Shown: one piece after another, positions 1,131-30,070 of the stretch
How positions within the stretch are numbered: the first letter of the stretch is position 1
Layout of the letters: each line of letters starts with the position of its first letter
Source of the DNA: a virus
Virus record (IMG/VR): IMGVR_UViG_3300025327_000086
Coordinates: 1-38,961 of that record
Direction: 5' to 3' (one strand)
Length of the DNA: 38,961 nucleotides
Program-made: the position numbers and the translations under genes
The notes under the pieces: model-generated
What the model saw: only the letters and a program-made list of their open reading frames with translations
Told to the model about the DNA's origin: nothing
Database searches by the model: none

Positions 1131-1896
1131 GGGCATCGAAGCCGCCGCGGATCTGCTCAGGGTCCGTCCGATCCACCCGGAAGGCCCCGCGCTCGTACAG
1201 GACCACCTGAGACGCGGGGGACTCAGCGTAGCGCCCGATGGTCTCTAGCACCCTCTTCGCCGACCGTCGCCCTGCACGGGTGTAGCCATACAAGAACGCC
1301 TGGTCCGCGATGCCAAGCAGCGCGCCGCCTCCCCGAATGGTCTTTCCGGCGGTCCCTGCGCTCTTCCGCTCGTGATGGAGCAACAGGACCGCCGCGCCCG
1401 TCGCCCGCGCCAGTTCCAGGAAGGGGGCCACAGCCTTCAACACCTGCATGTTGTCGTTCTCGTCGTCCACGATGCCCCGCCAGAAGTGGGCGAGGGTGTC
1501 GAGGATGACCAGGCCGATCTGCTGGGCGCGAACGTACTCTCGGAGTTCCAGATGGAGAGCAGCGGTCGGTGGCAGGCCGCCTCGATGCAGGTGGAGCGGC
1601 ACATCATGGGCACGCAAGGCCCGGAGCCGGCGCTGGACGTCCTGGGGGTGTTCCTCCACAGCGAGGATCAGGACGTTTTTCTGCTTGGTCGCGCCCCCCA
1701 GGAAGGGCACCCCGCGTTGAATCGCCAGAGCGAGAGGATAGGCCAGCGTGGACTTGCCGACCTTGGGATAGCTGGCGAGGACGGCCAGGGTTCCCAGGGG
1801 AAGGTAGGGCTCCCACAACCAATCGATGCCGATGTCTGGCTCCGTGAGGATGTCGTCGGCCTTGCGGATCTTGAGGAGATTCAAGCGGGCCTCCAA
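1075..1896 (-). CDS. RepA/AAA_25-like RecA-fold ATPase
   Basis: A 273-residue P-loop ATPase of the RecA/DnaB fold, most like RepA-type hexameric helicases and phage AAA_25 proteins. Walker A is ASYPKVGKST at residues 41-50, a probable catalytic Glu is in AVEEHPQDVQRRL (E81/E82), Walker B is LVILDTL with D133, and a LLLHHERK strand follows. The family role is loading or helicase work in DNA replication. The only in-frame start near the N-terminus is TTG 1896; the ATG at 1907 is out of frame. The C-terminus is a Pro/Gly-rich tail that overlaps the convergent gene. It lies downstream of the small HEMGH gene on the same strand. Confidence 0.82.
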   Translation of the reverse strand: MEARLNLLKIRKADDILTEPDIGIDWLWEPYLPLGTLAVLASYPKVGKSTLAYPLALAIQRGVPFLGGATKQKNVLILAVEEHPQDVQRRLRALRAHDVPLHLHRGGLPPTAALHLELREYVRAQQIGLVILDTLAHFWRGIVDDENDNMQVLKAVAPFLELARATGAAVLLLHHERKSAGTAGKTIRGGGALLGIADQAFLYGYTRAGRRSAKRVLETIGRYAESPASQVVLYERGAFRVDRTDPEQIRGGFDAPTPPTRPPEEADGGDGGR

Positions 1897-1916
1897 GTAC
1901 CCGTCATATGACGACT

Positions 1917-1922
1917 AGTATA
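1917..1922 (-). promoter_or_regulatory. possible extended -10 for the leftward ATPase gene
   Basis: On the minus strand TGGTATACT gives an extended -10 (TGn plus TATACT), about 20 bases upstream of the TTG start. No good -35 is seen at the right distance, so this is tentative. Confidence 0.25.
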
Positions 1923-1975
1923 CCAGGCGCCGTTCCTGTTCTACTACTGTCCTAAGAGTGACATACATCATCATT

Positions 1976-2003
1976 TTGACGCGTAACTTATTGATTCTAC
2001 TAT
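1976..2003 (+). promoter_or_regulatory. candidate rightward promoter TTGACG-N16-TACTAT
   Basis: TTGACG (1976-1981) and TACTAT (1998-2003) are 16 bases apart in an AT-rich stretch. Transcription would run antisense through the leftward 2039-2317 gene. The -10 overlaps the left arm of the inverted repeat at 2001-2032. Only four of six -10 bases match consensus. Confidence 0.25.
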
Positions 2004-2032
2004 CACTGATGCCTCCCGTGACCGCAGTGATA
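2001..2032. repeat. inverted repeat TATCACTG...CAGTGATA
   Basis: Perfect 8-bp arms at 2001-2008 and 2025-2032 are separated by 16 bases. They lie just past the stop of the 2039-2317 gene, in the 140-bp AT-rich gap before the ATPase gene. There is no T tract on either side, so an operator or mRNA hairpin is more likely than an intrinsic terminator. Confidence 0.45.
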
Positions 2033-18244: not shown

Positions 18245-18371
18245 TCGGTTTCTCCGCCCCTATCCGACCCTTCCTGACGCGCCGCGCTCAAGGCGCTTGA
18301 CTTCCGCGCCCGGTGAGGTAAGAGGGAGACGGCACGCTCGGCCGGACGGCCGCCGTGCCCTCCCTTCCCGG

Positions 18372-18399
18372 GGCCGGGGGTCGGCGGCGGCCCCCGGCC
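18372..18399 (+). terminator. second hairpin before the portal gene
   Basis: GGCCGGGGG and CCCCCGGCC form a 9-bp stem with a 10-base loop, followed by a pyrimidine run TCTTTCCCTTCC. It lies 21 bases before the portal ATG. The 270-base gap 18150-18419 holds only the promoter and these two hairpins. Terminator, leader structure or attenuator cannot be told apart. Confidence 0.35.
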
Positions 18400-18419
18400 T
18401 CTTTCCCTTCCGGGGGGCG

Positions 18420-19985
18420 ATGGCGCTCAAGGATACCCTCCGCTCCATCATGGACCGCCTCTTCCCGCCCGCGCCGGACCCGGCGCGGACGACGGAGTCC
18501 CTCCCCCCCGCGTCGCCCTACGGACCGCCCGCGCTCGCCCGCTACGTCGAGGACCGGACCCGCCTGGAGCAGACCCGCGCCGCGCGGTATAACGATTTCG
18601 AGCGCATCGACGAGGAGATGCCGGAGGCCGCCGCGGCGCTGAGCATCTTCGCGGATAACGCCGCCTACGCCGACCGCGAGCCGTCCGAGACGTTCGCCTT
18701 CGAGACGGAGGACGAGCGCCTGAAGGAGACGCTGGAGGAGATCGCGGCGCGCGTGGGCGCCCGCGAGAACGTCTGGACCCTCGCCCGCGACGTGACGAAG
18801 TACGGCGAGGAGTTCCAAGAACTGATCTTCGACCAGGGCAAGGACTTGGTGCGCGTCAAGTCCCTCGACCGCTTCCAGACCTTCCGGGCCGAGGACCCCT
18901 ACGGGCGCCTCCCGGCCAAGGGCGCCTTCTGGCAGGGCCGGGCCGAGGCGGACAAGCCCGAGGTGGAGTTCGAGGACTGGCAGGTCGTGCACTACCGCCT
19001 CCGCCGCACGGCCCGCTCGCGCTACGGCACCTCGCTCCTGCACTCCGCCCGCAAGACGTTCCGCCGGCTCGACATGATGGAGGACGGCCTCGTCTTCACC
19101 CGCCTCACGCGCGCCGTGCAGCGGACCGCCTTCCTCGTGGACACCGGCGGCCTGCGCGGCCCCGAGGCGGCGGCGCACCTCGAGCGGGTGCGCGACGCCT
19201 TCAAGAAGCGCCGGTACATCGACACGCGCACCGGCCAGCTCGCCGTGCAGGACAACCCGGCCCTCGCCGAGGACGACATCTGGCTGCCGCAGGGCGAGGG
19301 GGCGAAGTCGGACGCGAAGGTCCTCCAGGGCGACTCCAACCTCGGGAAGATCGAGGACATCGAGTACTTCCGCAACAAGTTCTTCGCGGCCCTCGTCGTC
19401 CCGAAGGCCTACCTCGGGCTGGAGCAGGACACGCGGGCGCGCGCGGTCATGACCGAGCTGGACGTGCAGTTCGCCCGCTCCGTGCGCCGCATCCAGAAGG
19501 CGCTGGCGGCCGGCGACAAGGAGAAGTTCGACCGCGCCCTGGCCGCCAAGGGCGTCACGGGGGCCGACTACCGGGTCGTCTACCCGCCCATCTCCACCAT
19601 CGACGAGCTGCGCGAGTGGGGGGTGGAGCGGCTCAAGGCGGAGATCGCCAAGATCTGGGGCAAGGACATCAACGAGGTCTCGGCGGCGTTCCTGCTCCGC
19701 AAGTACCTCGGCCTGACGGACGAGGAGATCGCCCAGATGGGCCTGGAGCCGAAGCCCGCGGCCCCGTTCAGCTTCGGGGCCTTCGGGGGCGGCGCGCCGC
19801 CGCCCGCCGGGGAGGAGGCCTACGCGCAGGCGCGCCTGGCCAGCGCGCTGGAGACGCTGCGGGAGCTGGCCGACTGGGAGGCCGATGGCGAGCGGTGGGC
19901 GCGCGCCGCGGAGCCGCCGCGCCGCGGCCGCCGCCTCTTCGTCCCGGTGTCCGGGAACGGGGCCGCCGCGGACGGGGCGGGATGA
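18420..19985 (+). CDS. portal protein, T4 gp20-like
   Basis: A 521-residue portal of the T4 gp20 type, the 12-fold ring through which DNA enters the head. Diagnostic stretches are RLTRAVQRTAFLVDTG, AFKKRRYIDTRTG, DDIWLPQGEGAKSDAKVLQG, and NLGKIEDIEYFRNKFFAAL ending in VPKAYLG. Length is close to T4 gp20. The C-terminal 80 residues are a low-complexity tail. First gene of the late operon. No large terminase gene lies near, which is unusual. Confidence 0.88.
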   Translation: MALKDTLRSIMDRLFPPAPDPARTTESLPPASPYGPPALARYVEDRTRLEQTRAARYNDFERIDEEMPEAAAALSIFADNAAYADREPSETFAFETEDERLKETLEEIAARVGARENVWTLARDVTKYGEEFQELIFDQGKDLVRVKSLDRFQTFRAEDPYGRLPAKGAFWQGRAEADKPEVEFEDWQVVHYRLRRTARSRYGTSLLHSARKTFRRLDMMEDGLVFTRLTRAVQRTAFLVDTGGLRGPEAAAHLERVRDAFKKRRYIDTRTGQLAVQDNPALAEDDIWLPQGEGAKSDAKVLQGDSNLGKIEDIEYFRNKFFAALVVPKAYLGLEQDTRARAVMTELDVQFARSVRRIQKALAAGDKEKFDRALAAKGVTGADYRVVYPPISTIDELREWGVERLKAEIAKIWGKDINEVSAAFLLRKYLGLTDEEIAQMGLEPKPAAPFSFGAFGGGAPPPAGEEAYAQARLASALETLRELADWEADGERWARAAEPPRRGRRLFVPVSGNGAAADGAG

Positions 19986-20704: not shown

Positions 20705-21050
20705 GGCCGGCGGGCTCGGTCGCCGCCTCAAGTGGGCGGCCTCCACGGCCGGGGCCGTCGGAGCCATCATAGCCGCCGGCTTCTCCTTCGACGGCCGCTA
20801 CGCCAAGGCCGAGGACGTGCGCCAGCAGATCGGCGGGGTCAAGGTACTCTACCTCCACAGCGAGCGGCGCGCCCTGGAGCGCCAGCGGTTCGAGCTGCAG
20901 GTGGAGGCGCGCCGCCGCCGCCTGACGGACATGGAGGTCGGCCGCCTGGCGGAGATCGAGCGCGAGCTGCGGCAGGTGGAGCGGCAGATCCGAGTGCTGG
21001 AGGGCCCGCCGCCCGCTGCGCCGCGGCGCCCCTCGGGGGGCTCCCCGTGA
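20697..21050 (+). CDS. membrane protein with long coiled coil, 117 aa
   Basis: GTG 20697 is chosen; TTG 20691 is an alternative. A short hydrophobic segment (WAASTAGAVGAIIAAGFSF) is followed by a charged helix of about 50 residues (RRRLTDMEVGRLAEIERELR) and a Pro-rich end. One anchor plus coiled coil resembles an i-spanin, but no partner was found and the position next to head genes is odd. Function unknown. Confidence 0.55.
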   Translation: MSEAGGLGRRLKWAASTAGAVGAIIAAGFSFDGRYAKAEDVRQQIGGVKVLYLHSERRALERQRFELQVEARRRRLTDMEVGRLAEIERELRQVERQIRVLEGPPPAAPRRPSGGSP

Positions 21051-23596
21051 CGCCGGCGCTCGCCGAGGCCATCGACCGGGCCCTGCCCCTGCTGGCCGAG
21101 GGCAAGAGCTACGGCTCGCGCCGCTCGCGCTCCGCCGTCCGCGCCGCCCTCAACGCCGCCGAGCGCGCCCTGCGCCCCGAGGTCTCCCGCTCCGCCGTCC
21201 GCGAGGCCGAGGCCGCCTACGCCGAGCTGAAGTCGGGCTTCGAGGACGCGCTCCAGGGCCTCCTCGGCGCCTACGAGGCCGAGGACGTGACGAAGGCGGA
21301 GTTCAGGCGCCGCATGCAGGAGGCGATCCGCGACCACTACGAGGCCGCGTACCGCGTGGGCCTGCGGCGCGCCGGGGGCGGCCCGCCCGTGGGGAGCCTG
21401 GCGCTGGAGGCCGAGGACCTGGCCTGGCTCAAGGGGGCGGCGAAGGAGGAGGGCGGGTACGCCCGCGCCTTCATCGACGCGGTGGAGGACGGCACGTCGC
21501 GGATGGACCCGGCGCGGCGGATGCAGATGTACGTGGACACGCTCGACGGCATCTACCGCCACGGGCAGGTGGACGCCTACGACGAGACGACGCAGATCGT
21601 ATGGGCGCTCGGGGTCGCGGAGCACTGCCGGACGTGCATCACCTTCGCCGCCGGGAGCCCGTATACGAAGGCGACGTTGCCGGCCACGCCGGGCGACGGC
21701 ACCAGTGAATGCAAGTGCATCACGACCCCGTGGAGCCGAGTATTGACGGACAAGGGGTGGATTCCCATCGGCCTGGTCGAACCCGGGGCGCTCGTGTGGA
21801 CGCATCGGCAGAGGTGGCGCCGGGTGACCGCAAGAATCGTGCGCCCGTCCGGCCCGGAGCACCGGCAAGCGTTCGTCCGCTCCCCGTCCGGGGAGTTCGT
21901 CGGATGCACCGCCGACCATTGGTGGCTGACATCCGATGGGTGGAAAGACACAGAGAGCATTGAAAAATATCGCTTGCAGATATATAGTATTGCCCATGCC
22001 GAAAGTTTGCATTCGCTGCTCAGGTGTGATGCGGTCACACAGGAAATCCGATCTTTGCCGGTCGTGCGCGAGTGTCTGCCATTGCGGGACGCCAAAGCAC
22101 TGGATATCCGCACAATGTCTATCGTGCGCGATGCGACGCAAAGCTCTGGTTCAATGGGGTTCGCCGCGCACAGAGGATGTGAGTCGGCCGAGGAAGTTTG
22201 CGGATCTTCAAGAGGGACATTTCCGCAATGCACGCAAGGACGGGCGCTATTGCGCGATCTTCTGGACGGAGGATGGCAGGGAACGGATAAGTTTTCGCTC
22301 GATTTGGCGATGGCAGAACATGAACGGTCCGGCTCCGCGTGGTTGTCAAATCCATCATATCAATGGCGATCCGACAGACGACCGGATAGAAAACCTATCG
22401 CTCATGACCATCGGGGACCATCGGCGACATCATTCTTCTGGGTCAATGAATCCCAGGTGGAAAGGTGGGCCGACGCAGCGAACATGCGCCCATTGCCGCA
22501 TGGAGTTCAGAACTTATTGGACGCGGAAATTCTGCTCAATGAGATGCTTCCGCCTAGCACGCCGCTCTACGATCTCTCCATCGAAGACGACCACTCCTTC
22601 GTAATTGAAGGCCTCGTCTCACATAATAGTAACTGCCGCTGCCGCCTGATTTTCCGCCCCGGCCAAGTCGAGCCCGAGGCCGAGGAGGCCGTCCGGGGCG
22701 GCCCCCCGCGCGAGGACCTCCCGCCCAAGGGCTTCCGCCGCCCCACCGAGCAGGAGCGGGCGTTCATCGAGAACCTGACGGCGCGCATCACGTTCTCGCG
22801 CGAGCTTACCGACCAGCTCGCGGGGCCGCAGCGGCGGGCCGAGATCCTGGCGCGCCAGCAGATGGCCGACCGCCTCGTGCGCTTCCTGGAGGAGCGCAAG
22901 ATCTGGCAGCGGCCGACGTGGGCCGCCGGCAACCGGGCGCACGGGCAGGCGGTGGACCGGGGCGCGCTGGAGGAGGTCCTCAAGGGGCGCGACCTGACGG
23001 GCGAGCAGCTCCGGCGCCTGCGGCGGGCGAGCCGGGGGGACTTCGACGACGTGCTCGACCGCTTCGAGGCGGCCGTGGCGGCGCGGCGCGCGGCCGTCAA
23101 GGTGGCGGCGGGCGACCGGGCGGCGGCCGACGAGATCGAGCGGGCGGCCAACATCGTCCTGGCCTCGGCGCTGACAGGGCCCGTCTCGGAGGCGGGCGAG
23201 CCCGAGCCGCCGGACGCGGAGACGGCGAGGGAGCTGGGCCGCCCGCAGCTGCGGCGGCCCAAGGCGCCCCCGCGGGAGCGCCCCGTCAAGCCCGTGAAGG
23301 ACCTCAGCGCGGCCAAGTTCCGTGTCGGCCAGCGGTTCCGCATCGGCAAGAGCCCGTTCGTGTGGAAGATCGTGGCCGTGGCCGTCTCCGCCGGGGCCGT
23401 CTCCTACGCCCTGGAGGACCCGGAGAACCCAGAGCGGGGGCGGGGGGCGACGCAGGCGGAGCTGGAGCGGGCGGAGGAGGTGACGCTCCAAGAGGCCCTG
23501 GCAAACCGTTTGCCAGTCCGGGAGTTGGTGGAGTACCTGGCGGCGTCCCGTGCCCGAGCGCGCCCAGAAGCAGCCCCAACCCCAGCGGCGGGCTGA
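21047..23596 (+). CDS. Mu gpF-like head morphogenesis protein, intein-containing
   Basis: An 849-residue precursor. The extein (about 545 residues) is a Mu gpF-like minor capsid protein: a helical N-terminus, then AEHCRTCITFAAGSPYTKA, PGDGTSEC and, after the intein, SNCRCRL, the Cys-rich signature of the family. An intein interrupts that signature at residues 224-527. The C-terminal half is charged and helical and ends in a small beta domain (FRIGKSPFVWKIVAVAVS). Such proteins join the portal region inside the head and are sometimes ejected. Splicing is likely needed for function, as the insertion splits the conserved Cys cluster. Confidence 0.85.
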   Translation: MTPALAEAIDRALPLLAEGKSYGSRRSRSAVRAALNAAERALRPEVSRSAVREAEAAYAELKSGFEDALQGLLGAYEAEDVTKAEFRRRMQEAIRDHYEAAYRVGLRRAGGGPPVGSLALEAEDLAWLKGAAKEEGGYARAFIDAVEDGTSRMDPARRMQMYVDTLDGIYRHGQVDAYDETTQIVWALGVAEHCRTCITFAAGSPYTKATLPATPGDGTSECKCITTPWSRVLTDKGWIPIGLVEPGALVWTHRQRWRRVTARIVRPSGPEHRQAFVRSPSGEFVGCTADHWWLTSDGWKDTESIEKYRLQIYSIAHAESLHSLLRCDAVTQEIRSLPVVRECLPLRDAKALDIRTMSIVRDATQSSGSMGFAAHRGCESAEEVCGSSRGTFPQCTQGRALLRDLLDGGWQGTDKFSLDLAMAEHERSGSAWLSNPSYQWRSDRRPDRKPIAHDHRGPSATSFFWVNESQVERWADAANMRPLPHGVQNLLDAEILLNEMLPPSTPLYDLSIEDDHSFVIEGLVSHNSNCRCRLIFRPGQVEPEAEEAVRGGPPREDLPPKGFRRPTEQERAFIENLTARITFSRELTDQLAGPQRRAEILARQQMADRLVRFLEERKIWQRPTWAAGNRAHGQAVDRGALEEVLKGRDLTGEQLRRLRRASRGDFDDVLDRFEAAVAARRAAVKVAAGDRAAADEIERAANIVLASALTGPVSEAGEPEPPDAETARELGRPQLRRPKAPPRERPVKPVKDLSAAKFRVGQRFRIGKSPFVWKIVAVAVSAGAVSYALEDPENPERGRGATQAELERAEEVTLQEALANRLPVRELVEYLAASRARARPEAAPTPAAG
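21716..22627 (+). other. intein in the gpF-like protein (304 aa)
   Basis: Starts with Cys (TGC 21716) in CITTPWSRVLTDKGWIPI, typical of intein block A. Block B is GCTADHWWLTSDGW with the conserved His. Block F is PLYDLSIEDDHSFVIEG and block G is LVSHN, followed by Ser as +1 residue. All splicing residues seem present. Between the blocks, about 21990-22530, the intein frame is open but encodes nothing recognisable, while another frame encodes an HNH protein. The middle is AT-richer than the host gene. Confidence 0.85.
21996..22604 (+). CDS. HNH homing endonuclease nested out of frame in the intein
   Basis: A 202-residue ORF in the +1 frame relative to the intein. Cys pairs at 5/8, 21/24, 28/30 and 41/44 look like zinc ribbons. 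The HNH core is CQIHHINGDPTDDRIENLSL with H120/H121, N133 and a His at 142-146. A C-terminal knuckle (CAHC...FCSMRC, C164-C184) follows. The last 15 or so residues read intein block F out of frame. ATG 21996 has no clear ribosome site. It may be expressed alone, by frameshifting, or be in frame in an error-free sequence. Confidence 0.75.
   Translation: MPKVCIRCSGVMRSHRKSDLCRSCASVCHCGTPKHWISAQCLSCAMRRKALVQWGSPRTEDVSRPRKFADLQEGHFRNARKDGRYCAIFWTEDGRERISFRSIWRWQNMNGPAPRGCQIHHINGDPTDDRIENLSLMTIGDHRRHHSSGSMNPRWKGGPTQRTCAHCRMEFRTYWTRKFCSMRCFRLARRSTISPSKTTTPS
23500..23514. repeat. exact palindrome GGCAAACCGTTTGCC
   Basis: The best copy: symmetry extends to 9-bp arms, CTGGCAAACCGTTTGCCAG (23498-23516). 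It lies near the 3' end of the gpF-like gene, about 35 bases before the Pup start. Confidence 0.85.
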
Positions 23597-23750
23597 GGAG
23601 CCCGCCCCGTCCGCAGCGCCCAAGGGCCAGGGCCGCCCCGACGCCAAGCGCCTGCGGGACCGGATGGACGCGGTGATCGAGGAGATCGACAAGGTGGTGG
23701 AGGAGAACCAGGGCCTGGCCGAATCGTTCGTCCAGCAGGGCGGGGAATAG
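23550..23750 (+). CDS. pup: Pup-like prokaryotic ubiquitin-like protein, 66 aa
   Basis: GTG 23550 overlaps the gpF-like gene by 47 bases. The protein has the Pup layout: a disordered Gln/Pro/Glu-rich half (residues 1-32), then a helix and the tail. The segment IEEIDKVVEENQ parallels mycobacterial Pup LDEIDDVLEENA as I remember it, and the end FVQQGGE parallels YVQKGGQ, with one residue fewer between. A terminal Glu means it could be ligated by PafA without deamidation by Dop. Neither enzyme nor proteasome genes are in the window, so it would have to use host ones. Virion or decoy roles are also possible. Confidence 0.82.
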   Translation: MPERAQKQPQPQRRAEEPAPSAAPKGQGRPDAKRLRDRMDAVIEEIDKVVEENQGLAESFVQQGGE

Positions 23751-24029
23751 ATGCCGGTGCTGGTGCTCCGCTCCGTGGACGATTCTGCGAACCTCCGCGT
23801 GATGCGCGCCGTCCTGGAGGCCCTCCGCGCCCGCGACTACGGCCGCCTCCGCGTCGGGCCGTTCGACGACGGCCTGGCCGCCGAGATCGGCGTGTTCGTG
23901 GAGGGGCCCAAGGGCGCGCTGGAGCGGCTGCGGCCCGACCTCGACCGGCGCCTGGCCCGGGCCGTCGTCCCGGCCCTGATAGAGCAACTGGAGATCATGG
24001 AGACACGCGCGGAGGGGGCCGGCCTATGA
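23751..24029 (+). CDS. hypothetical protein, 92 aa
   Basis: ATG 23751 follows the Pup stop with no gap. Alpha/beta look: VLVLRSVDDSANLRVMRAVL, then DGLAAEIGVFVEGPKG, then a C-terminal helix. The stop overlaps the next ATG. It is the immediate partner of Pup in the operon, but no family was recognised. Confidence 0.55.
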   Translation: MPVLVLRSVDDSANLRVMRAVLEALRARDYGRLRVGPFDDGLAAEIGVFVEGPKGALERLRPDLDRRLARAVVPALIEQLEIMETRAEGAGL

Positions 24030-24373
24030 GCGGGGAGGGGCGGGACGAGGCCCGCGCCGGCTTGCGGGAGGCCATCGCGGAGGCCCTGCGCGGCGGGGGG
24101 GCCAAGGCCGTCGTCGAGGCGGGCCTCCAGGCCGCCGGCCCGGTCGTCGAGCGCCTGTCGCCGCGGCAGCTCCGCCTGCTCTTCGCCCGGGGCGTCTTCC
24201 GGGCCGCCCGCCAGGCCGGGGCTTCGGTCGTCCGCTCCGGCGGCGGGCTGGCCGGGGCGCGGCGGGCCCAGACGGGCGCCCTCGTCCGGCGCCAGGCGGG
24301 CCTCCAGAGGTTCGCGGCCGCCCGGTCCTCCCGGGACGTGCGGATCGCCCGGCGCTTCGGGGTGGCGCGGTGA
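24026..24373 (+). CDS. LSxxQLR-motif family protein 1, 115 aa
   Basis: ATGA overlap with the previous gene. Contains VVEAGLQAAGPVVERLSPRQ and then LRLLFARGVFRAARQA, which aligns well with the next gene and, over the LSxxQLRxLFA part, with the kinase-like gene after it. The C-terminus is rich in Arg and Gly. Probably a tandem duplicate. The shared motif may be a docking or packaging signal; function unknown. Confidence 0.6.
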   Translation: MSGEGRDEARAGLREAIAEALRGGGAKAVVEAGLQAAGPVVERLSPRQLRLLFARGVFRAARQAGASVVRSGGGLAGARRAQTGALVRRQAGLQRFAAARSSRDVRIARRFGVAR

Positions 24374-24783
24374 GCCTAGCGGCGGCCATCCAAGATGTCC
24401 TCGCAGGCACCGGGAGCCTCCGCTGCGTCGTGGAGGCCGGGTTGGCATCCTCCCACCCGGTGGTCGAGCGCCTCTCGACTCGTCAGCTCCGCTACCTGTT
24501 CGCCATCGGGGCGATCCGGGCGGGGCGGCAGGCGGCTCATGGCCTGGCGCTGGGGCCAGCCCGGCGCGAGGCCATCCGGGGTGCCGTGGCGGGCCAACTC
24601 CGCAAGGTGCGCGCCGTGCGGCCGGATGTCTTCCGGCGCCTGCGGGACTACTATGCCGTATCCGTCGGGGACTTCGGCGCGACCGGCCTGGCGGGGACGC
24701 GCACGCCATTGCGGGTGGCCCGCCAAACGGCCCGTCAGCAGGCGCGCAAGCAGGGCCTGCGCTTCTTGGCCGTCCAGGCATAG
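24370..24783 (+). CDS. LSxxQLR-motif family protein 2, 137 aa
   Basis: GTG 24370 overlaps the previous stop. Residues 20-55 (VVEAGLASSHPVVERLSTRQ, LRYLFAIGAIRAGRQA) match the preceding protein closely. The C-terminal half is different: RKVRAVRPDVFRRLRDYYAV and a basic end. A paralogue of protein 1 after tandem duplication. Confidence 0.6.
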   Translation: MSLAAAIQDVLAGTGSLRCVVEAGLASSHPVVERLSTRQLRYLFAIGAIRAGRQAAHGLALGPARREAIRGAVAGQLRKVRAVRPDVFRRLRDYYAVSVGDFGATGLAGTRTPLRVARQTARQQARKQGLRFLAVQA

Positions 24784-24792
24784 GAGACGGCC

Positions 24793-25857
24793 GTGGCGAA
24801 CGCCCTCCGCCAGCTCCGCGACGACCTGCTCCGGCTCCTCGACGGGGTGGAGGAGGAGGCCCGCCCCGACCCCCTGCGGGCCGTGCTCGACGAGGAGATG
24901 AGCGTGCGGCAGCTCGTGCGGCAGATGGCGGAGGACGGCCGCCTAGACGAGGCCGGGCGCCTCTCCCAAAAGCAGCTCCGCTTCTTGTTCGCCATCGGGG
25001 CGATCCGGGGCCAGACCGTTCCGAGGGTCGGCGCGGTGCGGGGGCCGAAGGAGCGTGCGATCGTCAAAGACCGCCCGGTGATCGCCGCCGGGCAGGCCCC
25101 GAAGGCCAAGAAGCCGGACAGCCTGGAGACGAGCCCGGTCACGGGCAGGAAGAGCCTCGGCGGCGGCGTCAACACGACGGAGATCGTCACCCTCCAGGAC
25201 GGCAGCAAGGCCGTCTGGAAGCCCACGGCCGGCGAGAGCCCCGGGCTGCGGCCCGGCCTGGTCCCGGACGGCACGCAGTACCGGAGAGAGGCGGCGGCCT
25301 ACGCCTTGGCGAAAGGGATCGGCATGGAGGACATGGTCCCGAAGACCTTCGCCCGGACGGTGGGGAGCCAGGCCGGCTCGATCCAGGAGTTTGTCGGCGA
25401 CGCGGAGGTGGCGAAGGCGGTCCAGTCTCAGGACCGCTACGACGGCCCGCGCGACCTGGCCCGCGCGGCGGTCTTCGACTACGTCATCGGGAACACGGAC
25501 CGGCACGCCGGGAACTGGATGGTGACGTCCGGCGGGCGGCTGAAACTCATCGACAACGGGCTGGCGTTCCCCGTGAAGAACCCGTTCGCGGAGTGGGGGA
25601 ACTTCCGGATCCTCCGCGAGGCCGACGAGCGGGCCGACGTGTGGGGCCGGCCGATCTCGAAGCTGGAGCGGCCGAGCGCCCTCTCGCCGTTCGACGAGGC
25701 CCGCCGCGCCCTGGTCGGCAAGTGGCCGGCGGTCCGGCGCTCCCTCAAGGCCGCCGGGCTGGAGGACGAGGCCATCCGCGGCGTCGCGGGCCGCTGGCGG
25801 GCCATCACGAAGCCGAATATCCGCCGGCTCCGGGACTTGACGGGGGACCTCCCGTGA
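24793..25857 (+). CDS. PI3K/HipA-like kinase with N-terminal LSxxQLR motif
   Basis: A 354-residue protein. The N-terminal 75 residues carry GRLSQKQLRFLFAIGAIRG, the motif shared with the two upstream genes. From about 115 a kinase-like core follows: GGGVNTTEIVTLQDGSKAVW then KP (ATP-binding strand and Lys), REAAAYALAKGIGM, IQEFVGD, FDYVIGNTDRHAGNWMV (catalytic loop with D and N), and LKLIDNGLAF (metal-binding Asp). The order fits the PI3K/HipA-like fold. Substrate unknown; a protein kinase acting on phage or host targets is plausible, and delivery within the head is a speculation. Confidence 0.7.
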   Translation: MANALRQLRDDLLRLLDGVEEEARPDPLRAVLDEEMSVRQLVRQMAEDGRLDEAGRLSQKQLRFLFAIGAIRGQTVPRVGAVRGPKERAIVKDRPVIAAGQAPKAKKPDSLETSPVTGRKSLGGGVNTTEIVTLQDGSKAVWKPTAGESPGLRPGLVPDGTQYRREAAAYALAKGIGMEDMVPKTFARTVGSQAGSIQEFVGDAEVAKAVQSQDRYDGPRDLARAAVFDYVIGNTDRHAGNWMVTSGGRLKLIDNGLAFPVKNPFAEWGNFRILREADERADVWGRPISKLERPSALSPFDEARRALVGKWPAVRRSLKAAGLEDEAIRGVAGRWRAITKPNIRRLRDLTGDLP

Positions 25858-26114
25858 CGCTACGCGTGTCCGTGCACACGATGGCAGGGGGCCAGGACAA
25901 GGAGGCCGGGACCATCACGCTCACAGACGGCAAGCTCGCGGCCGAGCCGGACAGCGCCCTGCTCCGGGAGATCCTGGCGGACGACATTGTCGCCCCGGAC
26001 GGCGCGGGCGGATTGGAGCGGCTGGACGCCAGCGACCCCGAGCGGTTCCTGCGGGCGCTGCACTACCAGTACAAGTCGGCGTACCTGCGGGTCTCCGAGG
26101 CCGAGGAGGTCTGA
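25854..26114 (+). CDS. hypothetical protein, 86 aa
   Basis: GTG 25854 overlaps the kinase-like gene stop. Strands at the N-terminus (LRVSVHTMAGG, GTITLTDGKLAAEPDS) and a helical C-terminus (PERFLRALHYQYKSAYLRV). It may be a partner of the kinase-like protein, judged by overlap only. Confidence 0.5.
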   Translation: MTLRVSVHTMAGGQDKEAGTITLTDGKLAAEPDSALLREILADDIVAPDGAGGLERLDASDPERFLRALHYQYKSAYLRVSEAEEV

Positions 26115-26431: not shown

Positions 26432-27178
26432 ATGCCCTACGACAAGCTGAGCGACCTCCCCGATCACATCAAGAAGCTGCCCGCGAAGAAGCAGCACATC
26501 TGGCGGGCCGCCTTCAACGCCGCGCACGCCGGGTACGACCCGAAGAAGGACCGCCAGCGCGACCCGAAGAAGACGCGCGCCGAGAACCGCGAGTCCTACG
26601 CCTTCCGCGTCGCCAACGCCGCCATCGCCACGAATGAGACGCGCCCCCTCTGGTCGGCGATCCGCGCCGGCCTGATGCAGGAGCGCCGGGCGCGCGGCTG
26701 CCCCATGTGCGGCGGGCCCCGCGCCGGCGCCAACGGCCGCCCGCTGGGCGAGGCCGCGCACGGCATGGACAACGGCGCCGCGCCCCCCGGCATGCGGAGG
26801 CGCAAGAAGAAGGCGGTGGAGAAAAGCGTCGGCCGCATGATGGAGGGCGCCCTGGCCGGGACCGTGGCCGTGCGCGAGGTGGTGCGCGCCGCCTTGGCGG
26901 AGGCCGTCGAGGACCACAGCTTCACGGACATCGAGGGCGCCGTCCGCCGCGCCGTCCGCGAGAAGTACGAGGCGCATGGGAACGGCCCGACGCCGGCCAT
27001 GGCCATGATGGAGACGCCCTACGTCATCGAGGTCTTCACGGACCGGGCCATCCTCCGCTGGCAGGGCAAGCTCTGGGCGGTGGACTACGAGATCGACGAC
27101 GCCGGGGACGCGACGCTGGGTGAGCCCGAGCGGGTGCGCGTGGAGTACCGGCCGGTCCCGGCGGGCGAGGAGGAGTGA
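26432..27178 (+). CDS. ChaB-domain head-module protein, 248 aa
   Basis: Residues 1-35 (MPYDKLSDLPDHIKKLPAKK then QHIWRAAFNAAHA) match the ChaB domain found in phage head modules. A CPMCGG knuckle lies near residue 90. A long helix (MMEGALAGTVAVREVVRAAL) and a C-terminal beta domain (YVIEVFTDRAILRWQGKLWA) follow. Its place before protease, scaffold and capsid suggests a core or decoration role. Exact function unknown. Confidence 0.65.
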   Translation: MPYDKLSDLPDHIKKLPAKKQHIWRAAFNAAHAGYDPKKDRQRDPKKTRAENRESYAFRVANAAIATNETRPLWSAIRAGLMQERRARGCPMCGGPRAGANGRPLGEAAHGMDNGAAPPGMRRRKKKAVEKSVGRMMEGALAGTVAVREVVRAALAEAVEDHSFTDIEGAVRRAVREKYEAHGNGPTPAMAMMETPYVIEVFTDRAILRWQGKLWAVDYEIDDAGDATLGEPERVRVEYRPVPAGEEE

Positions 27179-27185
27179 GGGGGGC

Positions 27186-27606
27186 GTGAGCAAGTTTCGA
27201 GAAGACATCCAGTGGGCGGCTGGATTCTTGGAGGGCGAGGGAAGTTTCGTCGCAAACGCTGCGCATCCAACCTTGGTGGCTAGTCAGGCTCTTGATATCG
27301 CCCATTGCGAGAAAACATCTTGGCCTCTTGACCGAATACGGGGCATCTTCGGTGGGACAATTACTAGAGTAAACCGCAAACAACCAGGGAGGCCACTCCA
27401 GGTATGGCGCTTGACGGGGACCGCAGCAATAGCCGTCTGGTATATGGTCTATAGATAGAGCAAGGGCGGCGAAGCGTTTTGCAACGGCAGAGGCCCGCGA
27501 ATCTCGGGCCGCATACTTGAGACAATATCGCCGGGTTCAGAAGGGTCTGCCTCCATTGAATCAAGCCAGCGAATTGACAGCGATGGCCCCTTTGCCCGGC
27601 GCATGA
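27186..27606 (+). pseudogene. frameshifted LAGLIDADG homing endonuclease
   Basis: GTG 27186 opens a 90-residue frame with DIQWAAGFLEGEGSF (LAGLIDADG helix), LDRIRGIFGGTITRV and the typical VWRLTG strand, ending at TAG 27456-27458. The +1 frame, from about 27457 to TGA 27604, continues RARAAKRFATAEARESRAAY, the basic helix that usually ends this domain. One base change near 27450 would restore a protein of about 139 residues. AT-richer than its surroundings. The N-terminal part resembles the remnant at 12321. Confidence 0.65.
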
Positions 27607-27619
27607 AAGGGAGCATCCA

Positions 27620-28843
27620 ATGAGCACTAATGCTAGGGAGCCGATCCTCATCGAAGTAACCCGTGCGCCCGTAACCATCATTTCCGAGGGAAAAGATGGC
27701 GACGGGAGGATGCAGATAAAGGCGAGGCTCCTCGAAGCCGGGATCAAGAACAGAAACAACAGAGTTTATCCCGTCGAAATTGTTCAGAGGGAAGTAGGGA
27801 AGTTGCAAGAGCGCATCGCCGCTGGCGTGGCGTTCGGAAGTGGAGGGCATCCGCAAGACGGGATGACATCGTTCAACGATATCTCTCATGTGTGGCGAAA
27901 AATCTGGATGGAAGGTTCCCAGGTTTTCGGAGAAGCAACGGTACTCAATGCCGGGCGCGGGAAAGTGCTCCAAGAAGTCATTCGGGTGACCGGTTCTGTC
28001 CCAGTATCCGTAAGGGGATTCGGAACCTGCGCAAGGGGGCAATTCAACGGTGAACCAGCGGATATAGTCGAATCCTCGTACCAAATGGTTACCGCGGACG
28101 TAGTCCTGAACGATGCTGGTTTCGAGGACGCCAAGGTCCTGCAAGTCAAAGAGGACGCTGCGGCCAAGGAAGGAGGCGCACCGATGGACCTGAAGGAGCT
28201 GAAGGAGAAGCACCCCGACCTGGTGAAGGCGCTCGCCGACGAGGTGACCGCCAAGGTCAAGCCCGAGATCGAGGCGGCCCTCGCCAAGCAGTACGAGGAG
28301 AAGGTCCTCGCCAAGATCGGCGAGGAGAAGGACGCCATCCGCGAGGCGGTGGAGAAGGAGGTCGCCGAGAAGTTCCACGTCGCGGCCATGCTGGAGGCCC
28401 TGGAGGCCATCGCCGTGGCCGTGGCGCCGTTCGCGGGGCCCGAGGACGACAAGGACAAGGTCCCCGCCGCCGACGCGGCCCTCAAGGCGACCGTGGACCA
28501 TCTCCAAAAGGAGTTGAACAAGGTGGGGCAGGGCCTCAAGGAGGCGCAGGAGCGCGAGGCGAAGCTGCTGGCCGACCTGGAGGCCGCCAAGGTGCCGGCC
28601 TACATCGGCGAGAAGGTCAAGGCCGAGCAGGGCGCGGAGCTGCTCGCCGAGGAGCTGCGGGACTGCCGGAGCACGCAGCAGGTGGACGAGCGCCTGCCGG
28701 CGGCCAAGGCGAAGGTCAAGCGCCTGCTGGAGATGCTCCCCGCGCTGCCGGGCCGGGGCAAGGTGCACGAGGAGCGGCAGGACGACGACGGCCTCACCCC
28801 GCAGCAGCGGCGGGAGCGGCGGCTGGCCGGCGTCCGCGACTAG
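27620..28843 (+). CDS. prohead protease (T4 gp21-like) fused to scaffold
   Basis: A 407-residue fusion. Residues 30-170 are a prohead protease: NRNNRVYP, catalytic His in GGHPQDG (H77), HVWRKIWMEGSQVFGEATVL, and catalytic Ser in VPVSVRGFG (S130), as in gp21/HK97-like assembly proteases. From residue 189 a charged helical scaffold follows (KELKEKHPDLVKALADEV, LKEAQEREAKLLADLEA). The protease half is AT-richer, with different codon use, and the change falls near the join. The scaffold guides capsid assembly and is then cut away by the protease. Confidence 0.82.
   Translation: MSTNAREPILIEVTRAPVTIISEGKDGDGRMQIKARLLEAGIKNRNNRVYPVEIVQREVGKLQERIAAGVAFGSGGHPQDGMTSFNDISHVWRKIWMEGSQVFGEATVLNAGRGKVLQEVIRVTGSVPVSVRGFGTCARGQFNGEPADIVESSYQMVTADVVLNDAGFEDAKVLQVKEDAAAKEGGAPMDLKELKEKHPDLVKALADEVTAKVKPEIEAALAKQYEEKVLAKIGEEKDAIREAVEKEVAEKFHVAAMLEALEAIAVAVAPFAGPEDDKDKVPAADAALKATVDHLQKELNKVGQGLKEAQEREAKLLADLEAAKVPAYIGEKVKAEQGAELLAEELRDCRSTQQVDERLPAAKAKVKRLLEMLPALPGRGKVHEERQDDDGLTPQQRRERRLAGVRD
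28184..28843 (+). CDS. internal in-frame start: scaffold-only protein, 219 aa
   Basis: ATG 28184 has a perfect AAGGAGG at 28170-28176, seven bases upstream, inside the fused gene. It would yield the scaffold alone in excess over the protease-scaffold form, as lambda Nu3 is made from within gene C. The start coincides with the rise in GC content, suggesting the scaffold was once a separate gene. Confidence 0.65.
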   Translation: MDLKELKEKHPDLVKALADEVTAKVKPEIEAALAKQYEEKVLAKIGEEKDAIREAVEKEVAEKFHVAAMLEALEAIAVAVAPFAGPEDDKDKVPAADAALKATVDHLQKELNKVGQGLKEAQEREAKLLADLEAAKVPAYIGEKVKAEQGAELLAEELRDCRSTQQVDERLPAAKAKVKRLLEMLPALPGRGKVHEERQDDDGLTPQQRRERRLAGVRD

Positions 28844-28945: not shown

Positions 28946-30070
28946 ATGAAGCACGAGGGAGCGACCTGGCTCACCGAAGATGCCGCCCGAGAGCGGCGGT
29001 GGGCGCACATCATCAAGGGCAAGAAGATCGACCCCGCGGACCGCATCGAGCGCCCCGCGGTCCGGATGATCACCGAGACCCTCCTGGACAACATCGCGGC
29101 CCACCTGGTCAGGGAGGGGAAGCTCACCGAGGACCTCGTCACCACGTCCCTCGGCGACCCGTTCACGACGTTCGCCTTCCCGCTCGTCCGCCGGGTCTTC
29201 CCCCGGCTCCTCGCCAACGACCTCTTCAGCGTCCAGCCGATGAGCCGCTCCACGGGGAAGATCTTCTTCCTCGACACGGAGTACACCGGCGGCGGCAACC
29301 GGGATGACCCGGCCGTCTTCAACAAAGACTACGCGACCACGGGCGAGGGGGCGGCCGTCGCCGAGGTGAACTACCGCATCACCGACGTGACGGTCACGGC
29401 CGAGCGTAAGGCCCTCAAGGCCAAGTGGACCATCGAGGCCGAGCAGGACCTGCGCAGCGACCACGCGCTCAGCGCCGAGGCCGAGCTCATGGCGATCGTC
29501 GCCGACGAGCTGGTGCGGGAGATCGACCGCACGCTGATCGAGGACTGCCTGTCGCAGGTGCCCGTCGGCAACCAGTTCACCTTCTCCAAGACGGCCCCCA
29601 CGGGCACGCCCTACAGCAACCTCGACCCGAAAGTCTACCGCCGGCAGTTCTGGGAGAAGATCGTGGACGCCAACACGGCGGTCTTCAAGAAGCGGCACGT
29701 CAACGCGACGTGGATCCTCGCCGGGGCGGACGCGGCGGGCTACCTGGAGAAGCTCGACGAGTTCAGCCTGTCCCCGACCGTCAACCCGACGGAGTGGCAG
29801 GCCTTCACCGGGTCGCACTTCTTCGGGACGCTCGGCAACCGCTGGCTCGTCTTCAAGGACCCCTGGTTCAGCGCCGACAAGATGCTGCTGGGCTACCGGG
29901 GGCCGTCGTTCATGCACGCCGGGTACGTCTACGCGCCGTACATCCCCGTCTTCACCACCGCGCTGCTCCAGGACCCGCACGACATGACCAACCGGCGCGG
30001 GATGATGAGCCGGTACGCGCGGAAGATGGTGATCCCGGAGATGTACGCCTCGCTCGAGCTGACGGCCTAG
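28946..30070 (+). CDS. major capsid protein, T4 gp23-like
   Basis: A 374-residue capsid protein of the gp23 type (HK97 fold). FAFPLVRRVFPRLLANDLFS followed by VQPMSRSTGKIFFLD, VTAERKALKAKWTIEAEQDL and ADELVREIDRTLIEDC are the gp23-family blocks. It is shorter than T4 gp23 (about 520), consistent with loss of the insertion domain. GGAGGAGGG precedes the ATG. No obvious N-terminal protease site was identified. Confidence 0.88.
   Translation: MKHEGATWLTEDAARERRWAHIIKGKKIDPADRIERPAVRMITETLLDNIAAHLVREGKLTEDLVTTSLGDPFTTFAFPLVRRVFPRLLANDLFSVQPMSRSTGKIFFLDTEYTGGGNRDDPAVFNKDYATTGEGAAVAEVNYRITDVTVTAERKALKAKWTIEAEQDLRSDHALSAEAELMAIVADELVREIDRTLIEDCLSQVPVGNQFTFSKTAPTGTPYSNLDPKVYRRQFWEKIVDANTAVFKKRHVNATWILAGADAAGYLEKLDEFSLSPTVNPTEWQAFTGSHFFGTLGNRWLVFKDPWFSADKMLLGYRGPSFMHAGYVYAPYIPVFTTALLQDPHDMTNRRGMMSRYARKMVIPEMYASLELTA

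Follow-up and report, generated by a model that had tools for sequence, protein, structure and literature searches.

The window analysed here, 38,961 bases, covers an entire IMG/VR virus record from an uncultured phage and carries T4-type head genes, with homologues of gp20, gp21 and gp23. The gene order is portal, MuF-like gene, Pup-like gene, a 92 aa ORF, three tagged genes, a small acidic ORF, a ChaB-like gene and protease (Table 1). The three tagged genes, which overlap or almost touch, have in common the motif RLSxxQLRxLFAxGxxR. All three peptides listed in an earlier note on this DNA were found exactly, and a motif HMM scored 46-51 bits on the three ORFs versus at most 4.8 bits on all other six-frame window ORFs, a separation far beyond chance. 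The same note had suggested that the neighbouring Pup and gpF-like proteins, too, may be cargo or regulators of head assembly; by HMM the motif is missing from both, and the data do not support them as further cargo. The ChaB-like gene, considered as a fourth tag copy for its LPAKKQHIW likeness, likewise found no support from the motif HMM.

Table 1. Tagged genes and neighbouring features of the head module, in window coordinates
Feature	Position	Strand	Basis or remark
Portal gp20	18297-19985		E=2.5e-53
MuF-like ORF	20732-23596		apparent intein at CxC site
HNH endonuclease ORF	21936-22604		PF13392 E=1.6e-12
Pup-like protein	23550-23750		PF05639 E=4e-9
Tagged protein 1, 115 aa, pI 12.0, tag from residue 43	24026-24373	+	ORF; no Pfam/PHROG match
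Tag copy 1, RLSPRQLRLLFARGVFR	24152-24202	+	
Tagged protein 2, 137 aa, pI 11.9, tag from residue 34	24370-24783	+	duplicate of protein 1 over first 55 residues
Tag copy 2, RLSTRQLRYLFAIGAIR	24469-24519	+	
Tagged protein 3, 354 aa, kinase-like, tag from residue 56	24793-25857	+	PF00454 E=4e-12
Tag copy 3, RLSQKQLRFLFAIGAIR, helix at model residues 59-72	24958-25008	+	
Kinase domain, residues 110-350	25120-25842	+	model; PI4K type II, Fam20, CtkA nearest solved folds
orf86, small acidic protein, pI 4.6, without tag	25854-26114	+	directly downstream of kinase
Protein with N-terminal ChaB-like domain	26432-27178		PF06150, E=7.8e-6, just below cut-off
ORF with WAAGFLEGEGSF	27120-27458		likeness by eye
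Protease gp21 (gp21-type, PF03420)	27620-28843		E=1e-11
Major capsid protein gp23	28946-30070		E=2e-56

The first two tagged proteins had been described as duplicates, and the BLASTP comparison agrees (E=7e-15). The similarity joins residues 13-64 of the 115 aa protein to residues 3-55 of the 137 aa protein and includes VVEAGL and PVVERLS, so that the two are partial duplicates, duplicated over their first 55-65 residues and with unrelated C-terminal parts. Similarity to the kinase-like protein is lower, at 2e-7 for the 137 aa protein and 9e-4 for the 115 aa protein. In all three, an N-terminal extension comes first, and the tag is internal rather than at the extreme N-terminus. The pattern L-[ST]-x-x-Q-L would fit a helix with an N-cap box and a hydrophobic staple, and a helix is predicted at the tag, with low to moderate confidence, in the models of the 137 aa protein and the kinase. 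For the 137 aa protein, AlphaFold gave an all-helical, low-confidence model from a three-sequence alignment (mean pLDDT 59.7), which was taken as a hint of a helix only.

The third partner had been called kinase-like, a call that the data bear out. Its PF00454 match scores 47.0 bits against a curated cut-off of 27.1, and K143, D236, R237, N241 and D254, corresponding to the Lys, the DRHxxN loop and IDxG, are invariant among 43 relatives. By this match and these residues it is a member of the PI3/PI4-kinase-like superfamily with an intact active site, and a predicted kinase. In the model (mean pLDDT 81), the tag belongs to a helical stretch near the N-terminus, followed by a low-confidence linker at residues 73-109 and a well-predicted domain. 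The catalytic core and fold are as in PI4-kinase type II, Fam20 and CtkA-like kinases, but identity to the solved structures is just 10-24%, TM-scores are 0.3-0.5 over the whole model, and this kinase is a phage protein. It forms a separate ORF without a MuF or portal domain. Among its relatives, the one in L018 is joined to a Mu-type portal (PF06074 E=4e-58), several are fused to MuF-like proteins (L024, L026-L029, L074) and, by sequence reading, others to XkdF-like and neck-like proteins. In a viral structure library, proteins with this kinase fold go by the names portal, head morphogenesis protein and ADP-ribosyltransferase.

The kinase is accompanied by orf86, which has no family match. 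The orf86 family lies directly downstream in 35 of the 77 listed kinase matches (some ORFs counted more than once), with relatives in L018, L020, L021, L023, L024, L026, L103 and others; in L103 the gene is directly upstream of the kinase. The basic kinase and the acidic orf86 are a conserved pair, in which orf86 may act as inhibitor, chaperone or substrate of the kinase.

With an alignment of the kinase domains, relatives were found in viral contigs, which were chosen by kinase and not by tag. One of these, L103, has two consecutive kinase genes starting MSRRPLSKKQLAAMFARM and (G)VSKLTRKQLAFLFATVY; it comes from the record of G001, an uncultured phage (IMG/VR 3300017971_000314, 59,113 bases). 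Eleven G001 genes carry an LSxKQLAxxFA-type tag at their start, each at E<1e-9 with a profile, A5. The tag begins at residue 4-7, as against 34-56 in the window. All 11 genes are on one strand, at 14.5-34.5 kb in the late structural region, and several sit among neck and tail-completion genes. The partners comprise two kinases, two HExxH proteins (one with weak, sub-threshold Pfam peptidase matches only), one protein judged ART-like by eye from an LYHVT segment, which matches no family, and six very basic proteins of small size. Once the tag is removed, only the two kinases, the two HExxH proteins and, weakly, one pair of small proteins still resemble each other, and the tag is reused on mostly unrelated proteins. 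All 14 tagged proteins of the two phages are basic (pI 8.7-12.0); the pI of the window portal, protease and major capsid protein is 5.4-6.6.

Because A5 was built from both phages, its scores are not independent, and a G001-only profile was therefore built. Among all window ORFs, this profile ranked the tagged genes first (E=0.0018), second (0.059) and fourth (2.1), and a profile-profile comparison gave P=9.5e-8. The G001-only E-values are individually modest, yet three of the top four places would be hard to get by chance. The capsid families differ, gp23 in the window and SU10_MCP in G001, and what tblastn finds in common is the kinase, one weak match and, at E=7e-25, a tail-tube-like protein; the tag is thus not simply a consequence of close overall relatedness. 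The earlier note had said beforehand that its proposal would be refuted if the motif were absent from homologues of these genes elsewhere. Since 11 genes of the unrelated G001 carry the same kind of tag, the motif is not confined to the window, and the proposal survives this check.

This occurrence also bears on the idea that a helical segment was merely copied between neighbours and has no common function. Duplication could by itself account for the window tags, given the shared N-terminal stretch of proteins 1 and 2 and that close relatives were not found. The window tags also have identical codons in 21 of 29 cases versus 14.4 expected, small numbers that lean toward more recent copying. 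In contrast, where the amino acid agrees between two G001 tags, the codon does so too in 197 of 485 cases versus 177 expected from codon usage; as codon pairs are not independent, the figures for both phages are descriptive. Synonymous sites in G001 are thus close to saturation, yet the peptide is conserved, which argues that selection acts on the peptide. With the same tag type on 11 genes of an unrelated phage, and the window genes recovered by a profile built without the window, we consider local duplication alone unlikely. The codon data also speak against a nucleic-acid or expression feature, such as a conserved leader or a translation start context, for which the position of the G001 tag at the very start of genes could be adduced. 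The near-saturated codon choice in G001 led us to reject a DNA-level leader as an explanation of the tag, and the window segment is internal. This reading is already largely refuted, and we attach hardly any weight to it.

A processing signal would make sense of a different feature of the window proteins. Upstream of the tag, the two small proteins have VVE|AG and the kinase has LDE|AG, which resemble Glu-P1 prohead-protease sites, and a gp21-type protease is present; it could cut just before the tag, which would be recognised by the protease or the scaffold. Precedents are T4 gp21, which trims N-terminal peptides off internal proteins (PMC9958956), and the SPN3US protease, which cuts after AXE (PMC10052503). 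The presence of such sites in all three proteins is weakly significant by shuffling (P=0.03, with two of the three proteins of common ancestry), and this protease may follow another cleavage rule. Moreover, the G001 tags, so close to the start, leave no room for a propeptide. We therefore regard processing as a distinctly improbable reason for the tag; a processing signal and a cargo tag could be compatible.

The tag is clear in two phages only so far. When 48 kinase-bearing or comparison phage records were searched with A5, matches below 1e-3 outside noise were seen in G001 and L123 only, leaving 46 of the 48 without the tag. Beyond G001, a second pattern scan also gave just L123 as seemingly real, and the matches of a scan with the GC-rich motif pattern were rejected as junk frames or unrelated proteins. 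The tag profile found none at 1e-4 in 692 genomes of two bacterial phyla, an empty answer that shows little, as the search had no positive control. Direct searches of IMG/VR, named phages and GTDB contigs gave no near relatives of the window kinase, major capsid protein or motif proteins, none of the named phages covered turned out to carry the tag, and a literature search, with many journals not covered, found no paper on the tag peptides. In L123, a neck-type protein (1445-2008, minus strand; PHROG 5, E=4.5e-9) contains one tag-like segment, KLTQKQLAYLFANGIL, a likeness that may be due to chance or may mean that the tag arose from a neck helix.

This segment inside a neck protein, along with the G001 tagged genes that sit among neck and tail-completion genes, would suit a helix that docks on some other common hub, such as a neck protein, the scaffold or, late in infection, a site on the nucleoid or membrane, and has no part in packaging. 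The tagged proteins would then work inside the infected cell or serve as minor components of the structure, and a conserved peptide on diverse proteins suits any shared receptor. However, the effector-type partners (kinase, HExxH, ART-like) and the portal- and MuF-fused kinase relatives point to virion cargo. We would give the hub a minor, if still appreciable, chance of being right.

Several known systems resemble what we propose for the tag. The T-even internal proteins are diverse, with the CTS alone conserved (PMC3012670), and in P1 an N-terminal piece of DarB, 30 residues long, targets a reporter to the capsid (PMC9024508). One feature of capsid-targeting signals is that a single short peptide stands on several otherwise unrelated proteins of one phage, and we see such a peptide on three window proteins and 11 G001 proteins. 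Like the tag, the T4 CTS of IPI, IPII and IPIII is a short N-terminal peptide on small basic, otherwise different proteins (95-193 aa, pI 8.9-9.5); the window tagged proteins are likewise basic, and the window phage shares with T4 its portal, protease and capsid homologues. The two peptides are unrelated in sequence, however: the T4 CTS is of the MKTYQEFIAEA type and the tag is RLSxxQLRxLFA, with no tag-profile match in the ipI-ipIII N-termini. Unlike the CTS, the new tag also heads enzymes, in the window it is internal by 34-56 residues, and its part in packaging is a proposal. The N-terminal signal of DarB brings a large effector into the capsid, as proposed for the tag, but the N-termini of P1 DarA, DarB, DdrA, DdrB and Ulx have no tag-profile match and the P1 proteins are acidic. 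The tag thus appears, by analogy, to be a functional counterpart of the T4 CTS and the P1 DarB signal; by sequence it is neither. A third comparison is with enzymes fused to MuF or portal domains (polyvalent proteins), which comparative genomics regards as head-delivered effectors (PMC5512222). These are head-module enzymes thought to be delivered, and relatives of the window kinase occur as such fusions, whereas the window kinase itself is a separate tagged ORF with no structural domain.

The earlier note had suggested a docking, packaging or head-targeting signal. The varied partners, the head-module setting, the tag on G001 genes and the fusions of kinase relatives with portal, MuF and neck proteins make a cargo or head-targeting tag the best explanation, and we think that the RLSxxQLRxLFA segment is probably, though by no means certainly, a phage-specific capsid-targeting tag; presence in the virion and the binding partner are the parts of that suggestion that we infer. 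Against a cargo tag we count the two-phage occurrence, the absence of similarity to the T4 CTS and P1 Dar proteins, the differing position of the tag in the window and G001, and duplication as an explanation of the window tags. In our model, the tag would be a short capped helix that docks on some part of the head or neck during assembly, and the fused protein would be carried into the particle, as with the T4 CTS, from which it could be ejected with the DNA. The window tag would load two small very basic proteins, plus the PI3/PI4-type kinase via a flexible linker; the basic character of the tagged proteins, as of T4 internal proteins, suits residence with packaged DNA. The gp21-like protease might also cleave at the Glu-P1 sites ahead of the tag, a step for which the shuffling result gives weak support. 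The kinase would be a likely effector, perhaps phosphorylating a host component after ejection; we infer the receptor, the ejection step and the kinase target alike.

The usual route to the phage proteins that are borne in the particle and enter first is proteomics, and a readable tag would predict such cargo from sequence. In G001 it would mark eleven cargo candidates at once, most of them without a recognised domain. The tag would also add a packaging handle beside the T4 CTS and P1 DarB, and would point to a class of phage-delivered kinases.

Other relatives of the kinase are preceded by a second recurring peptide, (Q/H)(P/A)RDxxGRF, with 50 occurrences (redundant loci counted in) versus 1 in a shuffle. 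Followed by Gly/Ser, it stands before or between the domains of many head-module proteins (L018, L021, L023, L065, L068, L075, L088, L099). In L023 it is ahead of successive ORFs; L065 and L068 repeat it 7-8 times between different domains, with up to 8 copies in L068. The arrangement in these three is the same design as that of the window tag, with another peptide; a literature search in which many journals were not covered found no paper on it. As a tentative generalisation, which we hold to be possible rather than probable, tailed phages may have a few modular address peptides, among them at least LSxxQL(R/A)xxFA and the commoner (Q/H)(P/A)RDxxGRF, copied before interchangeable enzymes as a sorting code for delivered effectors that is independent of MuF fusion.

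The head module has other features. The Pup-like protein, in a T4-type phage head module, has the C-terminal end GGE; it has no match among named phages, and no paper on a phage-borne Pup was found in a literature search with many journals not covered. The ChaB-like domain is encoded between the kinase cassette and the protease. The next ORF, which Pfam leaves without a match, contains the segment WAAGFLEGEGSF, which by eye resembles a LAGLIDADG homing endonuclease. The HNH endonuclease ORF lies within the intein region of the MuF-like ORF in another frame, both frames being open, and L032 and L105 have inteins at a similar MuF site.
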